From the IMG/VR virus record IMGVR_UViG_3300006163_000008, positions 1 to 42,997 of that record: a stretch of 42,997 bases of DNA; one strand, written 5' to 3'. This document shows positions 4,643-41,577 of the stretch, one piece after another. This stretch comes from a virus. Under the pieces are notes generated by a model that saw nothing but the letters and a program-made list of their open reading frames with translations, made no database searches and was not told the DNA's origin. The translations under genes were made by a program, and so were the position numbers. The stretch's first letter is position 1; each line of letters opens with the position of its first letter.

Positions 4643-5608
4643 TCACTGCACGAATCTCGGGACCGTTCGAATGAAGCGCGAAGAGAACGTCACGCTCTGC
4701 GCGTTCGACACGCTGTACCGGCTATGAAGTCCGCCGCCCGCCGCGATCGAGACGCCACGCAGCGCGCGGCTGTACGACGACATGTAGCCGCCCGCAGGCT
4801 GGTTGTAGAGGCTCATCGCCAGGCTTGAGATGCCGTTGCCGTTGATGTCGGTCAACGTCATGTAGGCGTTCGCCACTCCGGCAACGTTCGGGTAAGCCGA
4901 GCAGCCCCATTCGGTCAGGTACTCGCCGCCGCGTGGCAGATAGATGTACGGCCCGGTCAGATCGACGGCCGATCCGCTCGACGTTGACGCCGATGCGTCG
5001 ATGTCAGCTTCGATCGGCGGACCGCCTATGAACAGCCACACCGCCCACGCCGCGTTCCATGAGAACGCCCAGCGCGTAATCCCGAACCCGTACTGATTGC
5101 CGGACGGCGTGAACGTCATGATCCAGATGTCGCCATCGGCCGGGGATGCAGGTGGTGTCGTGTTGCCGTTCGGCGTGGTCGTGATCTTCGGCAGCCCGAC
5201 GTCGGCCGGAGTGATCGCGGACCACACCGCCGCACCGCCGACGCCTTTGAGCCACTGTCCGTTGACGACGGCGGGCACCGTTGCGACGGTCGTCCACTGC
5301 GTGTCGTAGTCGGTCGCCGTCTTCTTCGCGAGCAGCTGGCCGGTCGTACCGCCAGCGACGACACCTGGCCCGGTAGCGCCGGTCGGTCCTTGCGGTCCGG
5401 TTGTGCCTTGCGCTCCGGTCGCGCCGGTCGCGCCCTGCGGTCCTTGCGGACCCGTGTTCCCGATCGGTCCTTGCGCGCCTTGCGGTCCTTGCACGCCTTG
5501 CGGTCCTTGTGCACCTGTCAGTCCGGTGGGTCCTTGGATCACGAGGTCGGCCCAGCCGGTCGATGTCTTGACGCGGATCGCGCGCGGTGTGTCGATCGTC
5601 GGACTCAC
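4643..5608 (-). CDS. Collagen-like tail fibre protein
   Basis: 321 aa. GTG at 5608 forms GTGA with the stop of the preceding gene. Residues about 28-72 are Gly-X-Y repeats ([19 protein letters not shown] and onward) expected to form a trimeric collagen-like shaft. The remaining 240 residues are Trp-, Gly- and Thr-rich, with an end domain (residues about 205-321, including [19 protein letters not shown]) that looks like a C1q/TNF-like jelly-roll tip, which is an inference. The same frame is open far upstream on the minus strand, but that stretch is the shadow of the next gene. Likely host-contact fibre. Confidence 0.82.
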
Positions 5609-6951
5609 AGCGTGTGTCCTGCGAGGTCGGCCCATGTGACGTGCGTGCCGGTGCCGATCGCGATCGGCGGCGGATCGCTCGTGATCCAGATCGCGCCGAC
5701 AGGTGCGTTCGTCGGTTCGACTGCCTGCTCGTAGACGGCGAGCACGCCCGGCGCGCCCTGCGCACCTGTCGGTCCTGCCGGACCCGTTGCACCGGCGGGA
5801 CCTTGCGTGCCGGTGGCGCCCTGCGGTCCTTGCGCGCCGGTTGCGCCGGTTGCGCCTTGCGGGCCGCGCAGGCTGCCGCGCGATGTCCACGTGCTCGTGC
5901 CGGTCTTCTCGTAGTACGTGCCGCTCGCGGAGTCCAGGTACCAATCCCCGACGATGCCGGTCGCGGGCGCAGGAGCGCCGCTGCCGGTGAACCAGACCTC
6001 GCCCGGCGTACCTGCCGCACCTTGCGATCCCGTGGCGCCAGCGGGTCCCTGAGGACCTTGCGCGCCCGTTGCGCCGGTGGCGCCCTGCGGGCCGGTGGCG
6101 CCCGGCACGCCTTGCGGCCCGGCTGGTCCCTGCAGGCCGGTGTCGCCCTTCGGTCCTTGCGCGCCGGTGGCGCCCTGCGCGCCCGTTGCGCCCGGCGGTC
6201 CTTGCGCGCCCGGCGTGCCAGCTGCGCCGGTGTCGCCCTTCGGCCCGGTGCCGACGCGCGTCACCGACAGCCACGTGGACTGCGCCGCCGACGTGAGCGC
6301 CGTCGCCGTGTCGGAGTACGCCTGCAGCCCGAGCACCGTGCCTTCGTTCACGTACATCTCGCCGCCCGTGATCACCGGCATCACGGACGACTTGACGGTC
6401 GGCGTTCCCTCGATCAGTCCGTACACCTGCACGGCGGTCAGCGCAGCCACGCGCACGGCGCGCTCGCCGGTCTGTTGCGTGCCCGAGAACGCAACCGACG
6501 CGGTGACGGCGTACACGCCTGCGCTCACACAGATGATGCCGCCCGCGTTCGGCCCGCTCGTGACGCGTTGGAACGTGTCGTCGCCGTGCTGCATGATCAC
6601 GCCGGTGATCGGCACCGGCGTCCACACGTTCGCCGGAACGGTCGTGCTCGGCTGCCCGGCGAACAGCGTCAGCGTGTCGTCCGCGATGCCGCCGCCCTTC
6701 GGCGGCGCCAACGTCATCACCCACGGTGTCTCGCGCTCATCGAAGACGACGAGGCAGTCGTCGCCGCGAATCGGCAGCGCGGAGCTGGGCGACCACGGGC
6801 ACGGTCCCCATTGGATGCGCGAACCGTCGAACGCCTGCACCGTCACGAACAGGTCGTCGTCCACGGACGCAGGTGTGTTCGCGATCGTGCCGTGCACCGC
6901 GGACTGCGGCGCCGGTGGCGCGTCGGAGATCAGGTCGAGCAGCTCTGTCAT
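5605..6951 (-). CDS. Baseplate-attached fibre: OB-like domain, jelly-roll and collagen repeats
   Basis: 448 aa; ATG 6951 overlaps the hub stop (ATGA). Residues 1-70 ([19 protein letters not shown], then [14 protein letters not shown]) look like the small beta-barrel that docks proteins to the baseplate spike. Residues about 80-200 include [19 protein letters not shown], a C1q/TNF-like pattern. Two blocks of Gly-X-Y repeats follow (about 215-300 and 345-400), separated by a spacer with [17 protein letters not shown], a sequence commonly found between collagen repeats in bacterial and phage proteins. A probable trimeric side fibre; domain names are from memory of patterns, not from a search. 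Confidence 0.8.
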
Positions 6952-17563: not shown

Positions 17564-19013
17564 TCGTGCCTCCTGTCGAAGTCGTCTGTGTCACCGGCAC
17601 CTGCGCTGCGCCGGGCTTGCCGGGCAGCTGCACGGCTGCCTCGCCGGGTGACGCCTGGATCGTCTCGCGCGCGACGACGGCTGGTCCGGCGATCGGCGCG
17701 CCTTCCGCGATCCAACGTTCGATCTGTTGCGGTGTCGCGCCGACGTACTCCCACAGCGCCGGACGCGGCACGCCGATGCTCGCCAGCTTCACGGCTGCGT
17801 CCACCGTCTCGCCGGTGTTCCGCGACTCCGGGTTCTTCCAGATCGTCTCGATGTCCCACGCCTCCGCGCGCGCACTGTTGCCTTCGACCGCGAACGACAA
17901 CCGCATCGCCTCTTCCCAGCCTTCACCGAACGCGAGCTGCTTGCGGTGCACCTTCGCCACGAGTCCCGTCTCCGTCGCCTTCAAGCTCTCGCCGGACGGG
18001 AAGCTGCCCGAGCTGCCGAGCAGGTAGTGCGGCGGTGTGCGCGTCTGCGCGGCAACGTGCTGGATCAACATCTCGATCGCCTTCACGTAGTTGCCGAGAT
18101 CGCTGACCGGGAACGCACCGAACGCGGCCTGCATCTCTTCGACCGCCATCACGCGATCGGCGCCGCTCAGGAACGACACGATCGACGGCAACGGCTGTCC
18201 CGCTTGCGGATGCCCGTCCGGGAACTTCGGAATGTCCACGCCTGTCACCCAGCGCTGCGGGTACGCGGCGTACTCGGACGCGACGATCATGTCGGCGCAC
18301 AGCTTGTTCACGGCGTCCTGCAGCGGCATGACGCGTTCGATGTCGCTGCGTCCTTGCCGTGCGCGCAGCGTCGGTGCGTTCGGCAACGGCACGAGCGGCA
18401 CGACGCCGAGCACGTTGCGCCCGGACGCAGCGTCGTCCAGCTGCCAGCTGCGCTGATCGCTCGGCCGGTCCCACCACATGATCACGTCGGGCAGGTAGAG
18501 CACGCAGTGCTGCATGCCCCACTCGTCTTCCCAGAGTCGCAGTCCGGCGATGCGGTGCCGTCCTTGCGCGGGATCGACCTGCACGATCGCGGTCGTCGGC
18601 GGTTCGATCTGGATCGACGCAGCGCCACCGTCGTCCGGCCCGACGAGCGCGTACGCGCAGCCGAGCTTGACGGCTTCGGTGTGCGCCAGCTCGCTCTCGG
18701 CGTCCAGCCCGTTGCGCTGCCACATCTCCCAGGCGGCGCCGTCGCCCTTCTCGTCCTTGCCGAAGCGGAACCCTTCGACCTTCAACCGTTCCGCGCTCGC
18801 GTCCACCACGAGGTCGCACCAGTTGTCCGCGAACGAGCTGAACAACGTGCCGAACGTCTCGCGGAACTTGAGCGTCGCGAACAGAAGCCGATGCTTGCCG
18901 GTGTAGTAATCGTCGCAGCTGCGCAGGTACGGCGCACGCGTCTGCAGCGCGGCGAGCAGGTTGTCGCGGTACTGCTCGGGCAGCGTCAGCGGCGATGTCT
19001 CGACGGTTGCCAT
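17556..19013 (-). CDS. Portal protein (SPP1 gp6-like)
   Basis: 485 aa, the normal size. Motifs of the SPP1-type portal in actinophages: YYTGKHRLLFATLKFRETFG near residue 35, NWCDLVVDASAERLKVEGF, the central VIMWWDRPSDQRSW, VPLVPLPNAPT, and DIERVMPLQDAVNKLCADM. Near residues 325-345 PPHYLLGSSGSFPSGESLKA belongs to the clip/stem region. Forms the dodecameric ring through which DNA passes. ATG 19013 shares one base with the terminase stop. Confidence 0.95.
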   Translation of the reverse strand: MATVETSPLTLPEQYRDNLLAALQTRAPYLRSCDDYYTGKHRLLFATLKFRETFGTLFSSFADNWCDLVVDASAERLKVEGFRFGKDEKGDGAAWEMWQRNGLDAESELAHTEAVKLGCAYALVGPDDGGAASIQIEPPTTAIVQVDPAQGRHRIAGLRLWEDEWGMQHCVLYLPDVIMWWDRPSDQRSWQLDDAASGRNVLGVVPLVPLPNAPTLRARQGRSDIERVMPLQDAVNKLCADMIVASEYAAYPQRWVTGVDIPKFPDGHPQAGQPLPSIVSFLSGADRVMAVEEMQAAFGAFPVSDLGNYVKAIEMLIQHVAAQTRTPPHYLLGSSGSFPSGESLKATETGLVAKVHRKQLAFGEGWEEAMRLSFAVEGNSARAEAWDIETIWKNPESRNTGETVDAAVKLASIGVPRPALWEYVGATPQQIERWIAEGAPIAGPAVVARETIQASPGEAAVQLPGKPGAAQVPVTQTTSTGGTSG

Positions 19014-20458
19014 CAGAAGCTCACCGGGACCTTGCTCCGCGGCTTCCAGCCCGCCGCAAGCAGATCGCTGCGCGCTTCGTACGCGAGCACCATCGCCACG
19101 GCTGCGTCGATCTTGTCGCCGCCCGCCTGCGACTTGACGAGCCAGTAGCCCGAGCGCACGGTGCGCATCTGTGCGTGCAGCACGTGCGCTGTCAGCCGTT
19201 CGTCATAGGTGTGGCGCAGCTGGTTCGCGGCGATGTCGGTGCGCACGCGTTCGACGGCGCCCATCATCCGCGCACGGCTCGTCCAGTAGCGCAGCACAAC
19301 GCTGTCGCCGTACATGCGCGCCCACTCGTCAATCTCGGTCTGCCACAGCGGCGGATCGCAGTAGGCACGCACGACGCTGTACGTGTGCATCGCATCAGCG
19401 ACGGCGGCATCGACCGCACCGGCGGGCACTTCCCAATCGTCGGGTGCGCTCTCGGGCTTCTGCCACAGCTCAAGCAGCTGCACGAGTCCGTCCTCGATCC
19501 GGCAGCCGACGAGCGCGGTGGCATCGTGGAAGCGCGAGCCATCGAAGCCGAGCGTTATCCGGTCGCCGGGCTGCAGGTGATCCAGCGTCTCGCCGTTGTG
19601 CCAGTCGTCCGCGTCGAGCCAGAAGTCTTCGGCGTGCACCCAGACACCGCAGCGGAACCGTGCCCACTGCCACGGCAGCATCGACGGCGAGTCGTGCATC
19701 GCCTGCAGGCTGTCGAGCGTGTGCCAGCTTGCAGGGTTCGCTTCCTTCACGACGCGCATGTCGTTCAGGTCGTCCTCCTTCCTGAGCGCCCATTCGTGCA
19801 GCGCGTAGCTGCCGTCTGTGCTGCGCGCGTACGTGTAGCGCCCGTCGCGCTTGACGTGCGGCAGGCGCAGCGCCTCGGCGCGCATCTGGCCGAGCGCGCT
19901 CGCTTCGTTGTCACCGGCGGTGCTGATCGTGATCATCTGTCCGTGCCGCGGGCCGAGGCCGTCGCGGAAGACGCCATACAGCGCCGCGCTCTTGTGCCGG
20001 TGCATCTCGTCCACGAGCGCGAGCGTTGGCAGCTGTCCGTCCGCGGTGTCCACGTCGGCGGCGAGCACACGGATGCGGCCGAAGTGCTTGAGCGAACGGA
20101 TCTCGCGGTAGCCGCGCTTCGCGACGACGCGCGTGTCCAGCCCGGGCGTGCGCCGCACGAATCCGCCAGCCTGGTCGTACAGGATCGTCGCCTGATCACG
20201 CGACGCTGCGGCGATCACGCAGGTGGCGCCCTCGTGCGTCATCAGGTGGAAGAGCGCGAGCGCGGCGAGCAGCGTCGTCTTGCCGTTCTTCTTCGGCAGC
20301 AACACAAGCGTCTCGACGGCGCCGTCGAAGTAGTCGAGCAGCAACGTGCGCTGATGCTCTTGCAAGTCCATCTGTGTGCCGTCCTCCAAGACGAGCGCGC
20401 TGCAGAAGCGCGCGAAGACGTCAAGCTCCGGAGGCGCGGCGAGCGCGGGCTGCGGCAA
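19013..20458 (-). CDS. terL: Terminase large subunit
   Basis: 481 aa DNA-packaging motor. ATPase: Walker A LLPKKNGKTT (residues 53-62) and Walker B LALVDE (146-151, catalytic Glu151), then TISTAGD as the coupling motif. Nuclease: Asp in LGFDGSRFHDATALV, a second acidic site near YCDPPLW, and the closing GGDKIDAAVAMVLAYEA. The lack of a longer N-terminus is normal for this subgroup. Start 20458 lies 38 bp inside the small subunit gene; a start slightly further in is possible. Confidence 0.95.
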   Translation of the reverse strand: MPQPALAAPPELDVFARFCSALVLEDGTQMDLQEHQRTLLLDYFDGAVETLVLLPKKNGKTTLLAALALFHLMTHEGATCVIAAASRDQATILYDQAGGFVRRTPGLDTRVVAKRGYREIRSLKHFGRIRVLAADVDTADGQLPTLALVDEMHRHKSAALYGVFRDGLGPRHGQMITISTAGDNEASALGQMRAEALRLPHVKRDGRYTYARSTDGSYALHEWALRKEDDLNDMRVVKEANPASWHTLDSLQAMHDSPSMLPWQWARFRCGVWVHAEDFWLDADDWHNGETLDHLQPGDRITLGFDGSRFHDATALVGCRIEDGLVQLLELWQKPESAPDDWEVPAGAVDAAVADAMHTYSVVRAYCDPPLWQTEIDEWARMYGDSVVLRYWTSRARMMGAVERVRTDIAANQLRHTYDERLTAHVLHAQMRTVRSGYWLVKSQAGGDKIDAAVAMVLAYEARSDLLAAGWKPRSKVPVSF

Positions 20459-20936
20459 GATCGTCTACCTCCGCGAACGGATCGGTGTCGTCGGCTGCCG
20501 GTTCTTGCCCGTTGTCTTCGTCGGTTGCGTCGCGGAGACGCACGCTCGTGCGTCCCCACCTATCCGGGTACTGCCGCTCAAGCAGCCACGCAGCTGCCTG
20601 CCAATTCTGTGTCGCCGCCTGACTGATCAGCGCGACATTGCGTACCTCGCCTTCGCTGCGTGCACGCTGCACACGTTCGCGGAGCAGGTCGAACTGTGCG
20701 CCCTCGCGGTTGAGCCAGCGATGCAGCGTCACGCGGTCGATGCCGACCGCACGGCACGCGACGCCGATGTAGTTGCCGGTGCGCAGGATCGCGCACAGCT
20801 GCTCGACCAGCTCGTCGCTCAGCTGCAGGCGCATGCCGATGTGCGGGCCAAGATGGAACGCGCACTTGTCGCTGCCGATCATGGCGCGCTTGCGGCACTG
20901 CTCGCCCTTCGTCGTCAGCTGCGTGCACTGCGCCAT
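20421..20936 (-). CDS. Probable terminase small subunit with N-terminal zinc-binding motif and HTH
   Basis: 171 aa from ATG 20936 (shares one base with the previous TGA). Residues 3-28 have a Cys/His motif (CTQLTTKGEQC, then DKCAFHLG) that probably binds zinc. A helix-turn-helix follows (NYIGVACRAVGIDRVTLHRW, residues about 55-75), typical of small terminases that recognise the packaging site. The tail is acidic (DNGQEPAADDTDPFAEVDD). It directly precedes and overlaps terL. A gene regulator is the alternative, less likely from position. Confidence 0.82.
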   Translation of the reverse strand: MAQCTQLTTKGEQCRKRAMIGSDKCAFHLGPHIGMRLQLSDELVEQLCAILRTGNYIGVACRAVGIDRVTLHRWLNREGAQFDLLRERVQRARSEGEVRNVALISQAATQNWQAAAWLLERQYPDRWGRTSVRLRDATDEDNGQEPAADDTDPFAEVDDLAAARARRASGA

Positions 20937-21691
20937 CAGCTGCTGACCGCCATCTGGCGCACGTCGCGCCACGCGATCTTGATGTCGGGGCGTCCGTTCG
21001 ACTTGACGTACGGCGTGCAGACGCCGGGCCACAGCTCGGCCATGCGCGCCGACGCGGTGCGCTCGATTCCTTGCGCGTACCTGTCATGCAAGCCGCCCGC
21101 GTTGCTGCCGTTGCGCGGCACCGTGAAGCTGAGGTCGCGCAAGCGTGCGCTGTCGTAGCCGTGCGCGATCGTCTGCAGCGTGAAGTCGCGGTCCACCTTC
21201 AACGGCAGGCTGAGCCGGTAGTTCGCAGGCGTGTCCGTGTTGACGAGCACGCAGCAATCGCAATAGCTGCACCACGTGACACCGCCGCGGCGCGCGTTCC
21301 ACGCGTACTGCGCATACTCCAACGCGACGAGGCCGAGGCGCCCGTCGTGCGAGTCCGCCCAGCGCTCCGCACGTTCAAGCGCGTAGTCGGCGGTCACCTT
21401 CATGTTGCGGTGATGCAACGGGTCGGTGCGCCAGAACGCGGAGATGTCGTCGTCCAGGAGCCAGAACCAGTCGAGGCCGACAGCGCGCGCGTGCTCCAAC
21501 GCAGCCTGCCGCGCGAACGCAAGCCCGGCGTCGTTGCGTTCCAGCACCGCCACGTCGTACGTCGGCGCGTCGTACAGGTCGCGGTCCTGCGGCTCAACGA
21601 ACACAAGCGCGCGGAAGCCGACCTCGGCAAGCAGCTGGAACAGCGGCGCCTTCGGCCGTTGCTTGCTACACACGAACACCGGCGCGTTCAC
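20936..21691 (-). CDS. TET-associated DNA glycosyltransferase
   Basis: 251 aa; GTG 21691 overlaps the TET-gene stop (GTGA). GT-A-like fold: N-terminal strand-helix (APVFVCSKQRPKAPLFQLL), Arg/Asn-rich donor region, and the acidic triad Asp80-Asp82 in WFWLLDDDISAFW, the expected metal/nucleotide-sugar site. Later GYDSARLRDLSFTV and SNAGGLHDRY are motifs I associate with glycosyltransferases paired with phage TETs. A cluster of Cys (WCSYCDCC) lies near residue 140. Likely transfers a sugar to hydroxymethylated cytosine in phage DNA; sugar unknown. Adjacent to terminase, so modification is probably finished before packaging. Confidence 0.8.
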   Translation of the reverse strand: MNAPVFVCSKQRPKAPLFQLLAEVGFRALVFVEPQDRDLYDAPTYDVAVLERNDAGLAFARQAALEHARAVGLDWFWLLDDDISAFWRTDPLHHRNMKVTADYALERAERWADSHDGRLGLVALEYAQYAWNARRGGVTWCSYCDCCVLVNTDTPANYRLSLPLKVDRDFTLQTIAHGYDSARLRDLSFTVPRNGSNAGGLHDRYAQGIERTASARMAELWPGVCTPYVKSNGRPDIKIAWRDVRQMAVSS

Positions 21692-22509
21692 GTCGCCACC
21701 TGCGCGAACCGTGCCCGCTCACGTTCGGTGCGGCGCTGCGCGTGCAGCCGTGCGTTGTCCACGACGGGATCGCAGCGCCACATCTGTTGCAGGCTGTAGA
21801 ACACGATGCTGTAGCGCCAGCCGCTCGGCCGTGTGAACCGGAACGGCGTGACGCCGTGCAGGATCGACTGTCCGTCGAACATGAGCAGCGAGTGGTCGCG
21901 CAACGTGAAACACACGTCCAGCTCGGGGCAGACCAGATCGCCACCGGCGCACGCGTTCTTGAACACGAGCATGTTCGACCAGCATCCGGCGAAGTTGCCG
22001 CTGTCGAAGTGGTACGGCAGCTGATTGTTCCGGTTGATGATGCCGCTCGTGAACACACCGCCGCCGAGGCGCCACTCGGGCAGCACCTTGCTCACCGTCG
22101 CCTCGTGCTGCGCGTACAGCTCGCCGTGCACGCGCCGGTACCACTCTTCGACCACCGGCGCCAGCGACGCGATGGCCTCGTGCGCCTCGGGCGCTTCGCG
22201 TGCAAGCGTTGCGCGATGGCACGTCTCCTTGCCGCGGATCGCTTGCTTCGGCGCGTAGCCGAACGTGCGCGACACGCTGTACATGCCGTCCGTCCGTCCC
22301 GCCTTGCCGAAGTGAATGCTGCGCAGCGCGGCGACAACGTGCGGCAGCCGCTGGTCCAACTCGATGTAGACCGCGCACGGATGCACCTGCTTCGGCAGGA
22401 ACAGCGCGCACGAGCCGGTCAGCTTGCGCTTGACGTGGCTCGCGTTCGCAAGCATGCCGCGGTACGCGTTCGCGTCCACGTCGTGCAGCTGCACGTCAAC
22501 GTGCCGCAT
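21688..22509 (-). CDS. TET/JBP-family 2-oxoglutarate/Fe(II) DNA dioxygenase
   Basis: 273 aa. Double-stranded beta-helix dioxygenase core: iron ligands His167-x-Asp169 in LPYHFDSGNF and His218 in SILHGVTPF, and the 2-oxoglutarate-binding Arg232 in SGWRYSIVFY. The preceding GGVFTSGIINRNNQLPYH and following WSNMLVFKNACAGGDLVCPEL are the pattern of phage TET/JBP-like enzymes. Members oxidise 5-methylcytosine (or thymine, in JBP) in DNA to the hydroxymethyl base. Lies between a ParB-like gene and the glycosyltransferase. The substrate here is inferred, because no C5-methyltransferase is visible in the window. Confidence 0.88.
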   Translation of the reverse strand: MRHVDVQLHDVDANAYRGMLANASHVKRKLTGSCALFLPKQVHPCAVYIELDQRLPHVVAALRSIHFGKAGRTDGMYSVSRTFGYAPKQAIRGKETCHRATLAREAPEAHEAIASLAPVVEEWYRRVHGELYAQHEATVSKVLPEWRLGGGVFTSGIINRNNQLPYHFDSGNFAGCWSNMLVFKNACAGGDLVCPELDVCFTLRDHSLLMFDGQSILHGVTPFRFTRPSGWRYSIVFYSLQQMWRCDPVVDNARLHAQRRTERERARFAQVAT

Positions 22510-23140
22510 GCGCCGCCCACTGCACCGCGTCGGAGTACGTGTCGAGCGACTGCGCCGCCATGATCGTGTCGAGGTCGCGGATCACAGCTTCGTACGTTCC
22601 CTTGTCGTAGCTGAGCATGATGCGGAACAGGTCCGCCTCTCCGAGTGCGTACGGTCGGTTCGCCGGGTTCGTGTCCGCCTCCGCGGCTACCATCTCGCCC
22701 GGGTCCAGGTACGCGAGCAACGCCTGCACGTCTTCCTGCGAGTAGCCGATGCCTGCGAGCATGTCCGCGTCGGCCATCGGCTTGAGCAGCTCGGCAAGCA
22801 ACGCGTCGTCGTACATGCCGAGGTCCGCGAGCCGGTTGTCCGCGAGCAGGTACGCATCCACTTCGCCGTCCTGCAGGTCGGTGCGTGTGACGGCGATGTG
22901 CGTCCAACCTTCGGCTTCGGCGGCGCGCCACACGTGATGCCCGGCAACGATCGTGCCGTCGTGCTGCGCGAGCACGGGCCGCTGCTGACCGAAGCGCTGC
23001 AGCGACCGCTGGATCTCGGCTACGACCCCCTGTCGAGGGTTACGTGGGTGCGGCTGCAGGGCCGACACCGGCACGAGGGCATCCCGTAGCTCGGCGTTAC
23101 CGCGCCACACAGCGACGCCTACGGTCGTCTCTTGCATCAT
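22496..23140 (-). CDS. ParB/sulfiredoxin-like protein, modification-associated
   Basis: 214 aa. Residues about 20-110 form the ParB-like nuclease fold: VSALQPHPRNPRQGVVAEIQ, then TIVAGHHVWRAAEAEGW with the G-H-x-x-x-R motif, and AYLLADNRLADLGMYDD. The C-terminal 80 residues (LGEADLFRIMLSYDKGTYEA) lack any methyltransferase motif (no DPPY, no PCQ), although ParB domains of this type are often fused to or next to DNA methyltransferases in phages. It overlaps the TET start by 14 bp, so it is translated together with the modification genes. Two ATG codons (23140 and 23137) are possible starts. Confidence 0.85.
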   Translation of the reverse strand: MMQETTVGVAVWRGNAELRDALVPVSALQPHPRNPRQGVVAEIQRSLQRFGQQRPVLAQHDGTIVAGHHVWRAAEAEGWTHIAVTRTDLQDGEVDAYLLADNRLADLGMYDDALLAELLKPMADADMLAGIGYSQEDVQALLAYLDPGEMVAAEADTNPANRPYALGEADLFRIMLSYDKGTYEAVIRDLDTIMAAQSLDTYSDAVQWAAHAAR

Positions 23141-24121: not shown

Positions 24122-24301
24122 ATGCACGCAACGTACGAAGAGGCAGGCAACGCGCTGAACGCAGCGCTGCTTGATGCGGAGCACGATCACGGTGCAGCTG
24201 CGGCGCAGAATGCGCACAGCGACATCGTGCGTGCGATCGCCGCGGACTGCACGCCGGAAGTGGCCGCGGAGCTACTGCGCCGCGAGGGCGTCGGCGCGTG
24301 A
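24122..24301 (+). CDS. Small hypothetical protein, first gene of the plus-strand operon
   Basis: 59 aa, helical and Ala-rich (YEEAGNALNAALLDAEHDHG, then ADCTPEVAAELLRREGVGA). ATG 24122 follows a near-perfect Shine-Dalgarno in the repeated leader. Stop overlaps the next GTG as GTGA. No recognised domain. Confidence 0.65.
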   Translation: MHATYEEAGNALNAALLDAEHDHGAAAAQNAHSDIVRAIAADCTPEVAAELLRREGVGA

Positions 24302-24915
24302 ACGATCGCGTCGTCAAGCGGCACCTCGTCAGAGGACGGCGGTTGCCGCAGTGGACGGTGCACGAGTACACGGACGGCACGTATGCAGCCGTTCGTGTCG
24401 GCGGCGGCACGGTGTCGCCGCGCATGACCAGCTTCGCGAAGGCTGCGGGCTGGGCACGTCAGCAAGACGCAACGTGGCATCCCGCCACATCCAACACACA
24501 GGAGGCAAGAACCGTTATGGCTGCATCGAAGAAGAGCACGTCGAAGAAGAGCACCGCGACGAAGACCACCGCTGCACGCAAGAACACCGCTGCGGCGAAG
24601 ACCACGACGGCGCGCAAGAACGGCGCCGCGAGGAAGACCACCGCCACCGCACGCAAGACGGCGACGGTGCGCGTGCCTGCAGCCGACGTGATCGGCTCGT
24701 TCCGCCTGCCGCCGGTGTTCGTTGACGCGGCGAAGCTGAACGGCACCGTGGTCAAGCGCAACGATCGCGCGGTGTACGTGAAGATGGACGCCGCTGCGGT
24801 CAAGAAGGCGAAGGCGGCGGCGGACAGGATCATCGCCGACGACAACGCCACGACGGGCGAGGTCATCAGCGCGCACGCCGCGTTGAAGGCGATCGCGAAG
24901 GGTCCGCGCAAGTAG
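24298..24915 (+). CDS. Lys/Ala-rich histone-H1-like protein, long form; internal start at 24517 likely
   Basis: 205 aa from GTG 24298, or 132 aa from ATG 24517. The first 73 residues look like an independent small protein (PQWTVHEYTDGTYAAVRV, SFAKAAGWARQQDATW). From 24517 the sequence turns into Lys-Lys/Ala-Ala-Thr repeats (KKSTSKKSTATKTTAARKNT) over about 50 residues, like H1-type nucleoid proteins, followed by a folded 80-residue domain (VIGSFRLPPVFVDAAKLNG, AADRIIADDNATTGEV). A complete copy of the repeated leader sits just before 24517 with no stop codon in between. Either two proteins share a frame, or two genes have fused by loss of a stop. Confidence 0.7.
   Translation: MNDRVVKRHLVRGRRLPQWTVHEYTDGTYAAVRVGGGTVSPRMTSFAKAAGWARQQDATWHPATSNTQEARTVMAASKKSTSKKSTATKTTAARKNTAAAKTTTARKNGAARKTTATARKTATVRVPAADVIGSFRLPPVFVDAAKLNGTVVKRNDRAVYVKMDAAAVKKAKAAADRIIADDNATTGEVISAHAALKAIAKGPRK
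24476..24516 (+). promoter_or_regulatory. Repeated 5' leader, copy 2, inside a coding frame
   Basis: GGCATCCCGCC at 24476-24486 (inside the GTGGC/GCCAC hairpin, 24474-24488), then ACACACAGGAGGCAAGAACC at 24494-24513 and ATG at 24517. It nearly matches the leader of the integrase gene. It marks 24517 as a strong translation start. Confidence 0.6.
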
Positions 24916-27858: not shown

Positions 27859-28863
27859 TTACACGGCGGCGGGCTGGCGGGCGGGCTGGCGCGGCTTGTC
27901 GCGGTAGCTGGCGCCGGTGTGCGGGTTGCGCAGCAACCCGAGCCGCATGCCGCCGCTGTAGTTGCACGTGGTGCAGGCGCCGCGCTCGCGGCGCTTGTCG
28001 TACAGGGCGCACATCGCGGCGTAGTGCTCGTCGCCGTACCACACGTTCGCGATGCCGTCGCGCACGTGCCCGAGCACGTCCTGCCCGTTCCAGTCGTGGC
28101 AGCAGATGACGATGGTGCCGTCGCAGTACATCGCGAGTTCGCGGAACGGGCGTGCGCAGCGCTTGTGCACGCTGCCGGGCGGTGTCGGCTGCATGCCGTA
28201 GCGCTCTTCCTGCGCTTGCGTCAGGTTGCCCGCCATGTTGTGGACCTTGCGCACCTTGACCGGGTTCGCCGGGTCACCGATGTCGGGCACGAGGTTGATG
28301 ATCTGCCGCCGCCAGCCGTTGCGGATCTTGCTGTACGCGCTCAGCTGCGTGAAGTCGCTCAGCTCGACGTGCGGGTGTGCCTGCACGTGCTGTTCGGCGC
28401 GCAGCTTGAAGCGGTCGTACGTCCGGTTGTAGCAGTCCACGTTCAGCAGGTTCAGCCCGGCGTCGAACAGGCGCGACGGCAGCTGCTCGTCCTTGAGCCA
28501 GACGGTGCCGTTCGTGAACATGCTCATCTGCGCTTGCGGCAGCCAGAAGCGCAGCTGCTTGATCACGGCGGGCGCGTCGGGGTTCAGCGTCGGCTCGCCG
28601 CGCATCGTGAATTCGATCCGGAAGTCCGGACCGATCCATTCGCGCAGCTGCTTGCCGATCTCACCGGCGAGCGTGGGCGTCATCGTGTGCTGCACCGTCT
28701 GGAAGTGCGGGTGCGTGCTGACCGGGCAGAACTTGCAGCGCAGGTTGCAGCCCTCGGTCAGTTCGACCTTGACGAGCCACGGCTTGTCGATCAGCTGCGT
28801 GCGCTCAGCGCGGCTGCGATCGCTGCGTTGCGGCTGCGGAGTAGCGTCTCCCACGTCTCCCAC
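27859..28863 (-). CDS. Radical SAM protein with SPASM-like C-terminus
   Basis: 334 aa from GTG 28863 (a second GTG at 28854 is possible). The 4Fe-4S cluster motif Cys39-x3-Cys43-x2-Cys46 is in TEGCNLRCKFC; GEPTLNPDA follows near residue 90 and MSMFTNGTVWL near 135. The C-terminal region has additional Cys (HKRCARPFRELAMYCDG, VICCHDWNG, GACTTCNYSGG), the layout of a SPASM/twitch auxiliary cluster. Substrate cannot be read. Last gene of the early operon. Candidate roles are base or peptide modification; radical SAM genes are known neighbours of phage base-modification systems. Confidence 0.85.
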   Translation of the reverse strand: MGDVGDATPQPQRSDRSRAERTQLIDKPWLVKVELTEGCNLRCKFCPVSTHPHFQTVQHTMTPTLAGEIGKQLREWIGPDFRIEFTMRGEPTLNPDAPAVIKQLRFWLPQAQMSMFTNGTVWLKDEQLPSRLFDAGLNLLNVDCYNRTYDRFKLRAEQHVQAHPHVELSDFTQLSAYSKIRNGWRRQIINLVPDIGDPANPVKVRKVHNMAGNLTQAQEERYGMQPTPPGSVHKRCARPFRELAMYCDGTIVICCHDWNGQDVLGHVRDGIANVWYGDEHYAAMCALYDKRRERGACTTCNYSGGMRLGLLRNPHTGASYRDKPRQPARQPAAV

Positions 28864-36012: not shown

Positions 36013-36518
36013 CGACACGCCCACTCGCCTCCCCTTCCGTGCGTGTTCATCCATCCGGCGGCGAGCGCGTTCGCGTACGGCGACCAGACGCTGAACCGGC
36101 TGTACGGCGTCGAGCGCCACGTGCTCGGCAGGAACTGATAGAGGCCGGACGCGCCGGACGGGTTCTGCGCGTACGGGTTCAGGTGGCTCTCGCAGCCTGC
36201 GCGCCGCCACAGCGTCTCGCAGCTTCCGTAGGCGACGCAGGCAAGGTTGATCGCTTCGGCGGTGCTGTCTGCGTGCGCCAGCGTCCGCGTCAGCTGCTTC
36301 ACGCGCCGGTGCGCGTTCGTGTACCGCAGCCACATGCGCCGGTAGCGTCCGTGCTCCTGCCGGTAGCGCAGCTGCAGCCGCTGCTCGCGGGCCGTGTGTT
36401 CCTCCTCGTGCACGATCGGCTCGGTGCGGGTGCGCTCGGGTGCGCCACGCACGCCGCGCGCCCAGAGGATGAGCACGATCAGCAGCGCGATCACGGTCAC
36501 CCACAGCACGGCGCGCAT
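36009..36518 (-). CDS. Membrane-anchored lytic transglycosylase/lysozyme-like protein
   Basis: 169 aa from ATG 36518. N-terminal hydrophobic segment (AVLWVTVIALLIVLILWARG, residues 3-22) acts as an uncleaved signal or anchor. A charged stalk (30-90) follows. The C-terminal domain has RRAGCESHLNPYAQNPSGA (Glu in CESH as likely catalytic acid) and SGLYQFLPSTWRSTPYSRF, then AGWMNTHGRGGEWAC. This is the Rpf/transglycosylase-like fold with an outside-facing active site. Being in the early operon, it is not the lysis enzyme; exclusion of superinfecting phage or envelope remodelling are guesses. Confidence 0.82.
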   Translation of the reverse strand: MRAVLWVTVIALLIVLILWARGVRGAPERTRTEPIVHEEEHTAREQRLQLRYRQEHGRYRRMWLRYTNAHRRVKQLTRTLAHADSTAEAINLACVAYGSCETLWRRAGCESHLNPYAQNPSGASGLYQFLPSTWRSTPYSRFSVWSPYANALAAGWMNTHGRGGEWACR

Positions 36519-37768
36519 CAGCCTGCCGCCGCGTTGACCGCGTTCTGCTTCTCGACCAGCTTGTCGATCAGCCACGACGCCTCGGCACGTGTCAGGTCGT
36601 CACGCAGCGGCGACCAGTGCAGCACGTCGTTCTCGTCGCGCCCGCCGAGCCGCTTGACCAGCTCACCGACGTCGCACTCACGCAGGTTCTGCGCAATGGC
36701 AAGCCACAGCCCGGCTGTCGTGATGTGCCCGCCGCGGTCGCGCAGCTGCCCGACGAGTACATTCAGCTTGTCGTACTGCGCCTCCGTGCGCAGCTTCGTC
36801 TGCCGTTCCTCCGTGTACGTGCCCGCGTCCGGGTCGGGTGCCAGGTCGTCGGCGGGCGCCTGCGGCATCGGTGCCGGGTCGAACGCCGGTGTCACCACCG
36901 GCGCCGCCGCCCGGGCGCCGCCGGGCATGCTCGACGTCTGAGCGCCTGTAACGGCGTCTAAGGCGCTGCGGGCGTCTGCCATGCTGGCAGCCGCGGCAGG
37001 GGACGGCTCGGGCACAGCGGGTCGCTCAAGGACGCCGGTGACCGCTACCGCCGGGGACGGGCTGGCGCCCTGCAGCTGGGCGCCGTTGCCGGGCTGCGGG
37101 CTGGGCGGCAGCCGCCGGTGCGCGGCACCACCGGCGGCGAGGTTGCCGTAGCCGACGTCCAGGTCCAGCGTCGGCACCACGTAGCGCACGACCTGTCCTT
37201 CCTTGATGCCGCGGCGCTGGTCGAGCACGAGCCGGGCCGGTACGAACGGCGCGCCGCCGCCGACCGTCGCGACGAACTGCATCATCGTCGGCAGCTCGTG
37301 CGCGGCGTTCGCGCCGCGCGTGATCAGCCGCCAGCCGAGCACGGTGTCCAGCTCGGGCAGCGCGACGACGAGGCGCGTGTAGATGTCGCAGCGGTCGATG
37401 CCTTCGGCGTTGCAGATGCACGGCCCGCCGCTCAGCTCTTCGTCCATGCCGTCGCACATGCGCAGCCGTTGCGTCGCGCCTTCCCACAACTCGTACGTCT
37501 GGCGCAGGCTGTAGTGCGGCATCACGAGCACGGGCAGCACCGGCGCGTCGGTGTACAGCTGCCACTCGTCGCCGTTCGGTCCCTTCCAGGCGGACGGCCT
37601 ACCGCCGCCGTATAGCCCGGACGCTTGCTCAAGCAGCTGCTTGCGCGGCGAGGTCAGCCGGAACGATTCCAGCTTGCGCCCGGGCGCCTTCGGTTGCTTC
37701 TCGCCGCCAACGCGGATGGCACCGACGAGCGCGAGCCGCCGCTGCAACTCAATGATCGGTGTCGGCAT
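36518..37768 (-). CDS. Probable recombination directionality factor (phiC31 gp3-like)
   Basis: 416 aa. The N-terminal 215 residues carry the gp3-like pattern: TPIIELQRRLALVGAIRVG, RKLESFRLTSPRKQLLEQAS, GLYGGGRPSAWKGPNGDEWQ, YELWEGATQRLRMCDG and PCICNAEGIDRCDIYTRL, then WRLITRGANAAHELPTMMQF. A proline/alanine linker (about 220-320) leads to an extra helical domain (LRTEAQYDKLNVLVGQLRDR, LTRAEASWLIDKLVEKQNAV) also seen at the ends of phage recombination proteins. Large serine integrases need such a factor for excision, and one is present 2 kb away. A DNA-binding hydrolase is the alternative. Confidence 0.75.
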   Translation of the reverse strand: MPTPIIELQRRLALVGAIRVGGEKQPKAPGRKLESFRLTSPRKQLLEQASGLYGGGRPSAWKGPNGDEWQLYTDAPVLPVLVMPHYSLRQTYELWEGATQRLRMCDGMDEELSGGPCICNAEGIDRCDIYTRLVVALPELDTVLGWRLITRGANAAHELPTMMQFVATVGGGAPFVPARLVLDQRRGIKEGQVVRYVVPTLDLDVGYGNLAAGGAAHRRLPPSPQPGNGAQLQGASPSPAVAVTGVLERPAVPEPSPAAAASMADARSALDAVTGAQTSSMPGGARAAAPVVTPAFDPAPMPQAPADDLAPDPDAGTYTEERQTKLRTEAQYDKLNVLVGQLRDRGGHITTAGLWLAIAQNLRECDVGELVKRLGGRDENDVLHWSPLRDDLTRAEASWLIDKLVEKQNAVNAAAG

Positions 37769-39981: not shown

Positions 39982-41577
39982 ATGGCTACAACCCGCAAGC
40001 GCAAGCGCAGCAACGTGATCAACCTGCACTTGCCGTTCGTCATCTACCTGCGCGTCTCGCGCATCGGTGGCCGCAGCGCCCGCGACGGCTACATCAGCAA
40101 GCAGCTGCAGCGGCGCGAGTGCGAGCGGCTCGCGGCGCAGCACGGCGTCAAGGTGTACGGCGTCTTCATCGAAGAGAACCTGTCCGGCACGAGCTTGGAG
40201 CGGCCGAAGTTCCAGGCGGCGCTGCAGCTTGTGCGCGACGGCGTGGTCGGCGGCATCATCGTGTACACGCTCGACCGCTTCTCGCGTGACACGTCGGACG
40301 GGCTGACGCTGCTCAAGGACATCGAGGCGCACGGCGGATCGCTCTTCTGCGGCGACGGCGAGGTCACGTGCCGCACCGCTGACGGCGAGATGATGGCGAC
40401 GGCGCGGTTCATGGTCGCCGCCCGCGAGGTCGGTGGCAAGCGCGAAGGCTTCGCCGCTACTGTCGAGAACGCAGTGGCACGCGAGGGACGGCATCTCGGT
40501 GTTCCGTACGGCTACCGGCGCGGCAGCTGGAAGGGACGCGAGCGGGTGCTCGTAGCGCACCCGGACGAGGCGCCGGTGGTCGAGCGCATGTTCACGCTGC
40601 GCAAGGCGGGCCACGGTTGGAACGCGATCGCGAAGCTGCTGAACGAGGACGGCATCCAGCCGCGTGCGTTCCGGCGCGCGCTCAAGGACGACGACGGCGA
40701 CCGGACCGACGAGTGGCAGCTGATCCAGGGCCAGTGGCGCGGCAAGACGGTGCGCGAGATCGTGAAGACGCGCACGTACCTCGGGCACGCCTGGAACGGC
40801 GACCACGAGCACACGAACGCGCATCAGCCGCTCGTGTCGAAGAAGCTGTGGCAGGACGCGAACAGCATCCGCACGACGAAGCCGACGCGCAACGCTGACG
40901 GCTACCTGCTCACCGGCCTCGTCCGCTGCGCCAGCTGCGGATACGCGATGGTGCACACGGCGCGATCGAACCCGAACGGCGGGCGCCGCCGGTACTACGT
41001 CTGCCGCAGCCAGAACGCTCAGCCGTGTACGCACCCGACGAGCGTGCCAGCACCGGCGGTCGAGCAACACGTGGACGACGCGATGCTTGCCGCGGCGAAG
41101 CAGCTGCGCAAGCTGCGGCCCGTGCAGGACGACAGCGCGCTTGCCGCCGCGGAAGCGGCGCTGCTCGACGCCGAGGCCGAGTACGAGGCGGCGCTGGATC
41201 GGCTCGACAAGACCACCGGCGCAAGTAAGGCGCAGCGGCGCGTGGTCGAGCGGAACCACGACGCGAAGCTGGCGCAGCTGAACGACGCGGAGCACGCACA
41301 CGATCAGGCGCTGCAGGCGTCGCGGTCGCTGTCGCTGCCCATCAGCATCGCGGATCTGGCACAGAGGTACCCGACGATGCCGGTGGTCGAGCGGCGGCAC
41401 CTAATCAGCCTGATGTTCGCGTGTGTTGCGGTGCGCCCTGCGGCCAGCTACGGCGAGGCGATCGAGGCGCGCGCGCAGCTCGTCGTCAATGGTTCGGTCC
41501 CCGCCAGCGTCGGCGTCATCGCCTTCGTCGCCGCGCTCGACTGGAACCCAACGGGTGCCGGGATGCGCGCGGCCTAG
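39982..41577 (+). CDS. Large serine recombinase (phage integrase)
   Basis: 531 aa. Catalytic domain: IYLRVSR with nucleophile Ser26, then EENLSGTSLERPKF, and the VYTLDRFSRDTSDGL motif. Recombinase domain: HLGVPYGYRRGSWKGRE, ERMFTLRKAGHGWNAIAKLL. Zinc ribbon: Cys316-x2-Cys319 in VRCASCGYAMVHT, with YYVCRSQNAQPC later. Coiled coil about 385-440 (AAAEAALLDAEAEYEAALDR). Integrates phage DNA at an attB site in the host and, with the gp3-like factor, excises it. Strong Shine-Dalgarno (TAGGAGGC). The only integrase in the window. Confidence 0.96.
   Translation: MATTRKRKRSNVINLHLPFVIYLRVSRIGGRSARDGYISKQLQRRECERLAAQHGVKVYGVFIEENLSGTSLERPKFQAALQLVRDGVVGGIIVYTLDRFSRDTSDGLTLLKDIEAHGGSLFCGDGEVTCRTADGEMMATARFMVAAREVGGKREGFAATVENAVAREGRHLGVPYGYRRGSWKGRERVLVAHPDEAPVVERMFTLRKAGHGWNAIAKLLNEDGIQPRAFRRALKDDDGDRTDEWQLIQGQWRGKTVREIVKTRTYLGHAWNGDHEHTNAHQPLVSKKLWQDANSIRTTKPTRNADGYLLTGLVRCASCGYAMVHTARSNPNGGRRRYYVCRSQNAQPCTHPTSVPAPAVEQHVDDAMLAAAKQLRKLRPVQDDSALAAAEAALLDAEAEYEAALDRLDKTTGASKAQRRVVERNHDAKLAQLNDAEHAHDQALQASRSLSLPISIADLAQRYPTMPVVERRHLISLMFACVAVRPAASYGEAIEARAQLVVNGSVPASVGVIAFVAALDWNPTGAGMRAA

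Follow-up and report, generated by a model that had tools for sequence, protein, structure and literature searches.

The window, a viral DNA stretch of 42,997 nucleotides that spans the IMG/VR record IMGVR_UViG_3300006163_000008, carries a gene cassette on its minus strand in the order ParB-like protein > TET/JBP dioxygenase > TET-associated glycosyltransferase (TAGT) > terminase small subunit > terminase large subunit > portal (Table 1). The cassette ORFs overlap by 4-14 bases, with 14 bases shared between the ParB-like and TET genes. An earlier note on this DNA had described the three overlapping ORFs at these coordinates without naming a strand and had located them directly upstream of the terminase. 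Both descriptions hold, with the small subunit gene lying between TAGT and the large subunit gene.

Table 1. Features of the cassette and the adjoining terminase genes (positions in the window).
Feature	Position	Strand	Characteristics
ParB-like protein, 214 aa	22496..23140	-	ParB/Srx N-domain and C-terminal TET-linked module; gene 1 of the cassette
C-terminal module of the ParB-like protein, ~residues 165-214	22499..22648	-	One strand, two helices; typical of ParBs upstream of TET
TET/JBP 2OG-Fe(II) dioxygenase, 273 aa	21688..22509	-	PF12851; AF2 pLDDT 93.8; PDB folds CMD1, CcTet, NgTET1, TET2
TET active-site stretch	21790..22011	-	H167, D169, H218 (Fe), R232 (2OG); N172, L240 at the base-reading positions of NgTET1/TET2
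TAGT (PF20691), 251 aa, GTG start	20936..21691	-	Swappable gene 3, 'decorator'
Terminase small subunit	20421..20936	-	phrog_4102 (4e-27); adjoins TAGT on the downstream side
Terminase large subunit	19013..20458	-	PF03354, PF20441, phrog_9

The same note took the window for a complete genome. This is unsupported: IMG/VR classes the record as linear, and a gene at 3-881 is cut at the left end. A 33.2-kb contig (G001) that is 99.99% identical stops at the same base as the left-end-truncated record. The size of the sisters (43-44 kb) suggests that little sequence is missing. In one sister contig (G004), both ends (1-2400 and 41516-43896) match the same window stretches, so it looks circularly permuted and complete at ~41.5 kb despite its linear class.

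Elsewhere, the window encodes a large serine integrase (39982-41577, plus strand) and a Gp3-like recombination directionality factor (36518-37768, minus strand). The phage is therefore probably temperate, which would place the modification genes in a phage capable of lysogeny. A Radical SAM/SPASM protein (27859-28863, minus strand; PF04055, PF13186) has no close named family and is weakly viperin- or MoaA-like. Its gene is found in the near-identical G001 and is absent from the sisters G002, G004, G005 and G006; the protein could be cargo or another base-sculpting enzyme. In addition, Lys/Ala/Thr-rich repeats (KKST, AARK) reminiscent of a histone H1-like protein are encoded at 24298-24915 (plus strand), with 29-nt direct repeats at 24529-24644, and two tail-associated proteins with collagen-like GXX repeats are encoded at 4643-6951 (minus strand).

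The TET protein matches PF12851 (E=2e-11) and phrog_6059 (3e-43). Its AlphaFold2 model, built on a 35-row alignment with the mean pLDDT given in Table 1, has only TET-family DNA dioxygenases as top PDB fold matches. A jelly-roll fold with HxD...H iron ligands and a 2OG arginine places it in the TET/JBP family. These ligands, already recognized in the earlier note, are invariant across 44 relatives. The TET fold takes up the whole 273 aa and leaves out a J-binding domain. The labels 'queuine tRNA-ribosyltransferase' and 'DpdA-like', attached to this family in PHROG 6059 and many GenBank records, are wrong because the fold is that of TET/JBP. Alignment to solved TETs predicts N172 and L240 at the base-reading positions, where Asp234/His297 in NgTET1 and Asn1387/His1904 in TET2 contact the flipped base (PMC11040006). 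Since human TET2 also has Asn at the N4-reading position, yet prefers 5-methylcytosine (5mC), the N/L residues are no proof of a thymine substrate, and Asn172 was dropped as such (PMC11040006). The TAGT matches PF20691 above the cut-off (E=1e-14) and phrog_842 (7e-17), contains the DDD site noticed before and provides the operon with an enzyme predicted to decorate hydroxymethyl bases.

No C5-methyltransferase (C5-MTase) was found in the window by PF00145, by an HMM for compact C5-MTases built from sister phages or by motif scan, and the idea of a hidden one there was dropped. PF01555 revealed no N6/N4 DNA methyltransferase. Thus, the earlier statement that neither a PCQ/ENV C5-MTase nor a DPPY-type enzyme is encoded here holds in these searches, among them the profile search for C5-MTases proposed along with it. 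Searches of the window for dUMP hydroxymethylase/thymidylate synthase (PF00303) and P-loop kinase (PF18751) were likewise negative, and no amino acid:DNA transferase (ADDT) was seen in the cassette beside the TET.

This gene content becomes understandable when phage TETs are divided into two classes. Profile relatives of the window TET were combined with annotated phages into a ParB-class set of 52 clusters at 90% identity. The stretch upstream of the TET is long enough for evaluation in 41 clusters; in 36 of them, a same-strand ParB gene precedes the TET at a distance of at most 2.5 kb, and in the window it lies directly upstream. Two of the misses are near ones: in L095 the overlap slightly exceeds the allowed length, and in L088 ParB is a little farther away. 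TETs of the Methylophilales phage Melnitz-1 type are preceded directly by a full C5-MTase in 59 of 61 loci (14/14 clusters), and none of the 14 clusters has a ParB beside the TET. By comparison, of the 49 clusters evaluated for the ParB class, 4 have a C5-MTase beside the TET (Fisher p=8e-11). The C5-MTase-linked TETs form a single separate clade (100% support) with Asp/Asp at the base-reading positions in all 60 matched proteins, versus Asn/Leu in 90 of the 97 TETs of the ParB-class set. The earlier assumption that phage TETs use 5mC made by the phage is therefore valid for the Melnitz-1 class but not for the ParB-linked class. Because the window TET sits in the latter, the absence of a C5-MTase is, judged by gene neighbourhoods, typical and not strange. 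The puzzle of a 'TET without C5-methyltransferase' largely dissolves, since the rule of one class had been applied to the other. No description of this class split or of the ParB module treated below was found in the literature searched, which lay outside the field's main papers, so that priority is not established. A third arrangement is present in Nonlabens phage P12024L (5122-7387), with TET-TAGT-DPPY methyltransferase and neither ParB nor C5-MTase; its TET has Asp at the first base-reading position.

The ParB-like protein matches phrog_8071 (9e-35) and, below the gathering score, PF02195 (5e-5). Its AlphaFold2 model (pLDDT 84.5) resembles the N-domains of ParB, Noc and KorB. It has the N-domain of the ParB CTPase clamp, but G67-H-H-V replaces an intact GERR CTP motif, and the annotated neighbouring genes include no recognisable ParA. 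The prediction also covers the C-terminus, as the earlier note had proposed, and yields a strand-helix-helix module. Its consensus, Y.....KQIvLYF..eeYe.v...ld.l......nT.av..ll..y, is common to TET-adjacent ParBs and aligns with residues ~165-214 of the window's ParB-like protein. To evaluate the module, 104 ParB-N proteins were held out; they are <85% identical to one another and to the training proteins, and each had to come with 2.5 kb of downstream sequence. A TET is encoded downstream of 12/12 ParBs with the module and of 10/92 without it (Fisher p=3.7e-10); by eye, several of these ten seem to have a divergent module. For 18 of the 82 held-out ParBs that lack a TET, the ORF itself contains a DPPY-like motif, as ParB-methyltransferase fusions would. 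A ribbon-helix-helix assignment of the module fits the order of its elements, but has no Pfam RHH match and remains a lead.

As the module is TET-specific, the ParB-like protein is probably the targeting subunit of the TET. This lends support to a suggestion of the earlier note that it has a role of its own. It could instead be a nuclease, NTPase or regulator that is merely co-transcribed. Nuclease annotations are attached to ParB-like proteins of phages, ParB N-domains turn up in many different settings and the GERR motif is degenerate here. We nevertheless consider this unlikely, because the ParB-TET pairing persists in phages that have diverged widely and differ in gene order, the C-module is confined to the TET context and ParB-N domains are fused to or located beside other DNA-modifying enzymes, where their role is unknown (PMC12783734).

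Like the conserved ParB-TET pairing, the swapping of the third gene is directly observed. Among the sisters, the third slot is occupied by TAGT, an FkbM methyltransferase, a kinase or a transferase, with at least 19 decorator changes on the TET tree over 55 rows. TAGT, FkbM, kinase and C5-MTase cassettes all occur within the seven-member clade (99% support) formed by the window TET and six sisters. Of the six sister cassettes closest to that of the window, those of L015, L016 and L019 include a compact C5-MTase gene adjoining the TET, and the L017 genome has a C5-MTase gene at another place. The enzymes of the first three contain the motifs DLFxGAGG, SPPCQ, ENVP and RRHR, and the TETs of all four sisters keep the same N/L pocket residues. 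Compact C5-MTases of ~200-220 aa adjoin ParB-class TETs at L015:6801-7454, L016:6816-7481, L019:2640-3299 and L069:6863-7459. FkbM-type SAM methyltransferases are found next to the TET at L002:10795-11481, exactly in the TAGT slot, as well as at L016:7478-8161 and L077:3884-4588. Their position predicts an O-methylated hydroxymethyl base or sugar. In Mycobacterium phage PRodriguez and Arthrobacter phage Altadena, the genes after ParB-TET encode TAGT and a PIG-L deacetylase; therefore, the TAGT variant belongs within the same group.

That the cassette acts as a DNA hypermodification system, previously called probable, is well supported by genomic context. The likely substrate emerges from the sisters. 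Rhodococcus phage Tonitrus, Mycobacterium phage Prince and Gordonia phages have genes for ADDT (PF18724) and Ploopntkinase3 (PF18751) after ParB-TET. The order is ParB-TET-ADDT-PLP enzyme-kinase in L021, which is the closest outgroup to the clade of the window, and in L018, whose TET is 59% identical to that of the window, a kinase follows the TET. In work of Lee et al. from 2018 and 2022, ADDT and the P-loop base kinase are said to act on 5hmdU in DNA. A dUMP hydroxymethylase route to this nucleoside was rejected: PF00303 is over the cut-off in 0/14 records, and eleven annotated isolates with window-type or related TETs have neither PF00145 nor PF00303 over the cut-off. As a dUMP hydroxymethylase is missing there, the 5hmdU for the sister enzymes would come from the TET. 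Therefore, thymine is the likeliest substrate, which by analogy we hold with moderate confidence. Among the three solutions offered in the earlier note, a TET acting on another base is thus the best supported. In their annotation, the authors of the Tonitrus genome named the gene set a thymidine hypermodification system (PMC11955845).

Several observations speak against thymine. The four closest sisters that carry a C5-MTase have TETs with the same pocket, so either those methyltransferases act independently of the TET or 5mC is handled by the TET as well; for this reason, our confidence was kept at the moderate level. In addition, T6 TAGT acts on glucosylated hmC (PMC13216743), ADDT and kinase may act on 5hmC although known for 5hmdU, and the window has no kinase and no ADDT beside its TET. 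Accordingly, the TET might oxidize 5mC that comes from a host methyltransferase or from a phage gene that this record has lost, and TAGT would glycosylate the resulting 5hmC. The compact C5-MTases next to the TET in L015, L016, L019 and L069 and elsewhere in the L017 genome, the unclosed record ends, the activity of T6 TAGT on hmC derivatives (PMC13216743) and the compatibility of Asn at the N4 position with 5mC (PMC11040006) agree with this. However, PF00145 has no match in most of the class, complete isolates from many different hosts among them, the ADDT/kinase decorators fit 5hmU, and the truly C5-MTase-linked TETs are the separate clade with D/D. Host-supplied 5mC, another solution offered before, is the least parsimonious default, since phages of this class that lack PF00145 infect Mycobacterium, Gordonia, Rhodococcus, Arthrobacter and Microbacterium hosts. 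Taken together, oxidation of 5mC appears rather improbable. A permissive TET for T and 5mC, with partner genes setting the base per lineage and the compact C5-MTase adding a cytosine branch, would explain the mixed cassettes and identical pocket residues of the seven-member clade, but is quite doubtful, as these C5-MTases may be independent genes in a modification island.

On balance, we favour, with some reserve and by analogy to the sister pathways, that ParB-TET-TAGT is a post-replicative hypermodification operon converting thymine into a glycosylated base. The ParB-like protein would engage phage DNA through its N-domain and bring the TET to it through the C-module. The TET would turn thymine in DNA into 5-hydroxymethyluracil by hydroxylating its 5-methyl group, as the sister pathways suggest, and TAGT, judged by its family, would add a sugar to the 5hmU hydroxyl to yield a base-J-like glycosylated thymine. 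Because the cassette is located upstream of the terminase, its position suggests that modification may occur shortly before packaging, and the modified DNA might be shielded from host nucleases. More tentatively, the pair may represent a two-component DNA oxygenase of a kind not defined before, in which an adaptor with the ParB fold and a TET-specific C-module would take a thymine-hydroxylating TET to chosen sites. The final base would then be set by whichever enzyme fills the freely exchangeable third place, be it a sugar transferase, kinase, amino-acid transferase or O-methyltransferase.

The window cassette joins the known ParB-TET modification cassettes of the actinobacteriophages, represented by Mycobacterium PRodriguez and Prince, Gordonia MakoManhole, Rhodococcus Tonitrus, Arthrobacter Altadena and Microbacterium Matzah. 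It shares with them the ParB-TET order, a location mostly near the terminase, the lack of C5-MTase and dUMP hydroxymethylase and, in PRodriguez and Altadena, the TAGT. By contrast, its TET is ~28-32% identical to theirs over the full length, it has no kinase, ADDT or PIG-L deacetylase, and the phage encodes a sheath-like tail protein, baseplate genes and a serine integrase. In the Melnitz-1-type systems, a TET/JBP dioxygenase also opens a hypermodification pathway, but with C5-MTase upstream, no ParB, Asp at both base-reading positions and a place in a separate clade; the window, with N172/L240 and no match to PF00145 or the compact HMM, falls outside them.

In phages such as ViI, M6 and SP10, a dUMP hydroxymethylase reportedly produces 5hmdU at the nucleotide level (Lee et al. 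2018, 2022). Common to these thymidine hypermodifications and the sister cassettes are 5hmdU as a handle and the presence of kinase and ADDT. Here, however, the TET would generate 5hmdU in DNA, and the window lacks PF00303 and PF18751 as well as, within the cassette, ADDT. If our preferred explanation holds, the kinetoplastid base J pathway (JBP and J-glucosyltransferase) also uses the same logic of a TET/JBP enzyme on DNA thymine followed by a glycosyltransferase; it differs from the phage pathway in the TAGT family, the ParB partner and the J-binding domain of JBP1. CmoX cytosine carboxymethyltransferase systems, too, encode a ParB N-domain protein beside a DNA base-modifying enzyme, but this is a C5-MTase-like enzyme with Cx-SAM in place of a TET (PMC12783734).

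The paradox of a TET without a methyltransferase gives way to a simple rule, open to testing in cultured phages, by which ParB-linked TETs would convert T into 5hmU, and C5-MTase-linked TETs 5mC into 5hmC. Should the TET be recruited by the ParB tail, thymine oxidation in DNA would have a natural targeting device in this pair. Furthermore, the exchangeable third gene points to unseen base modifications, e.g., O-methylated 5hmU where FkbM replaces the glycosyltransferase.
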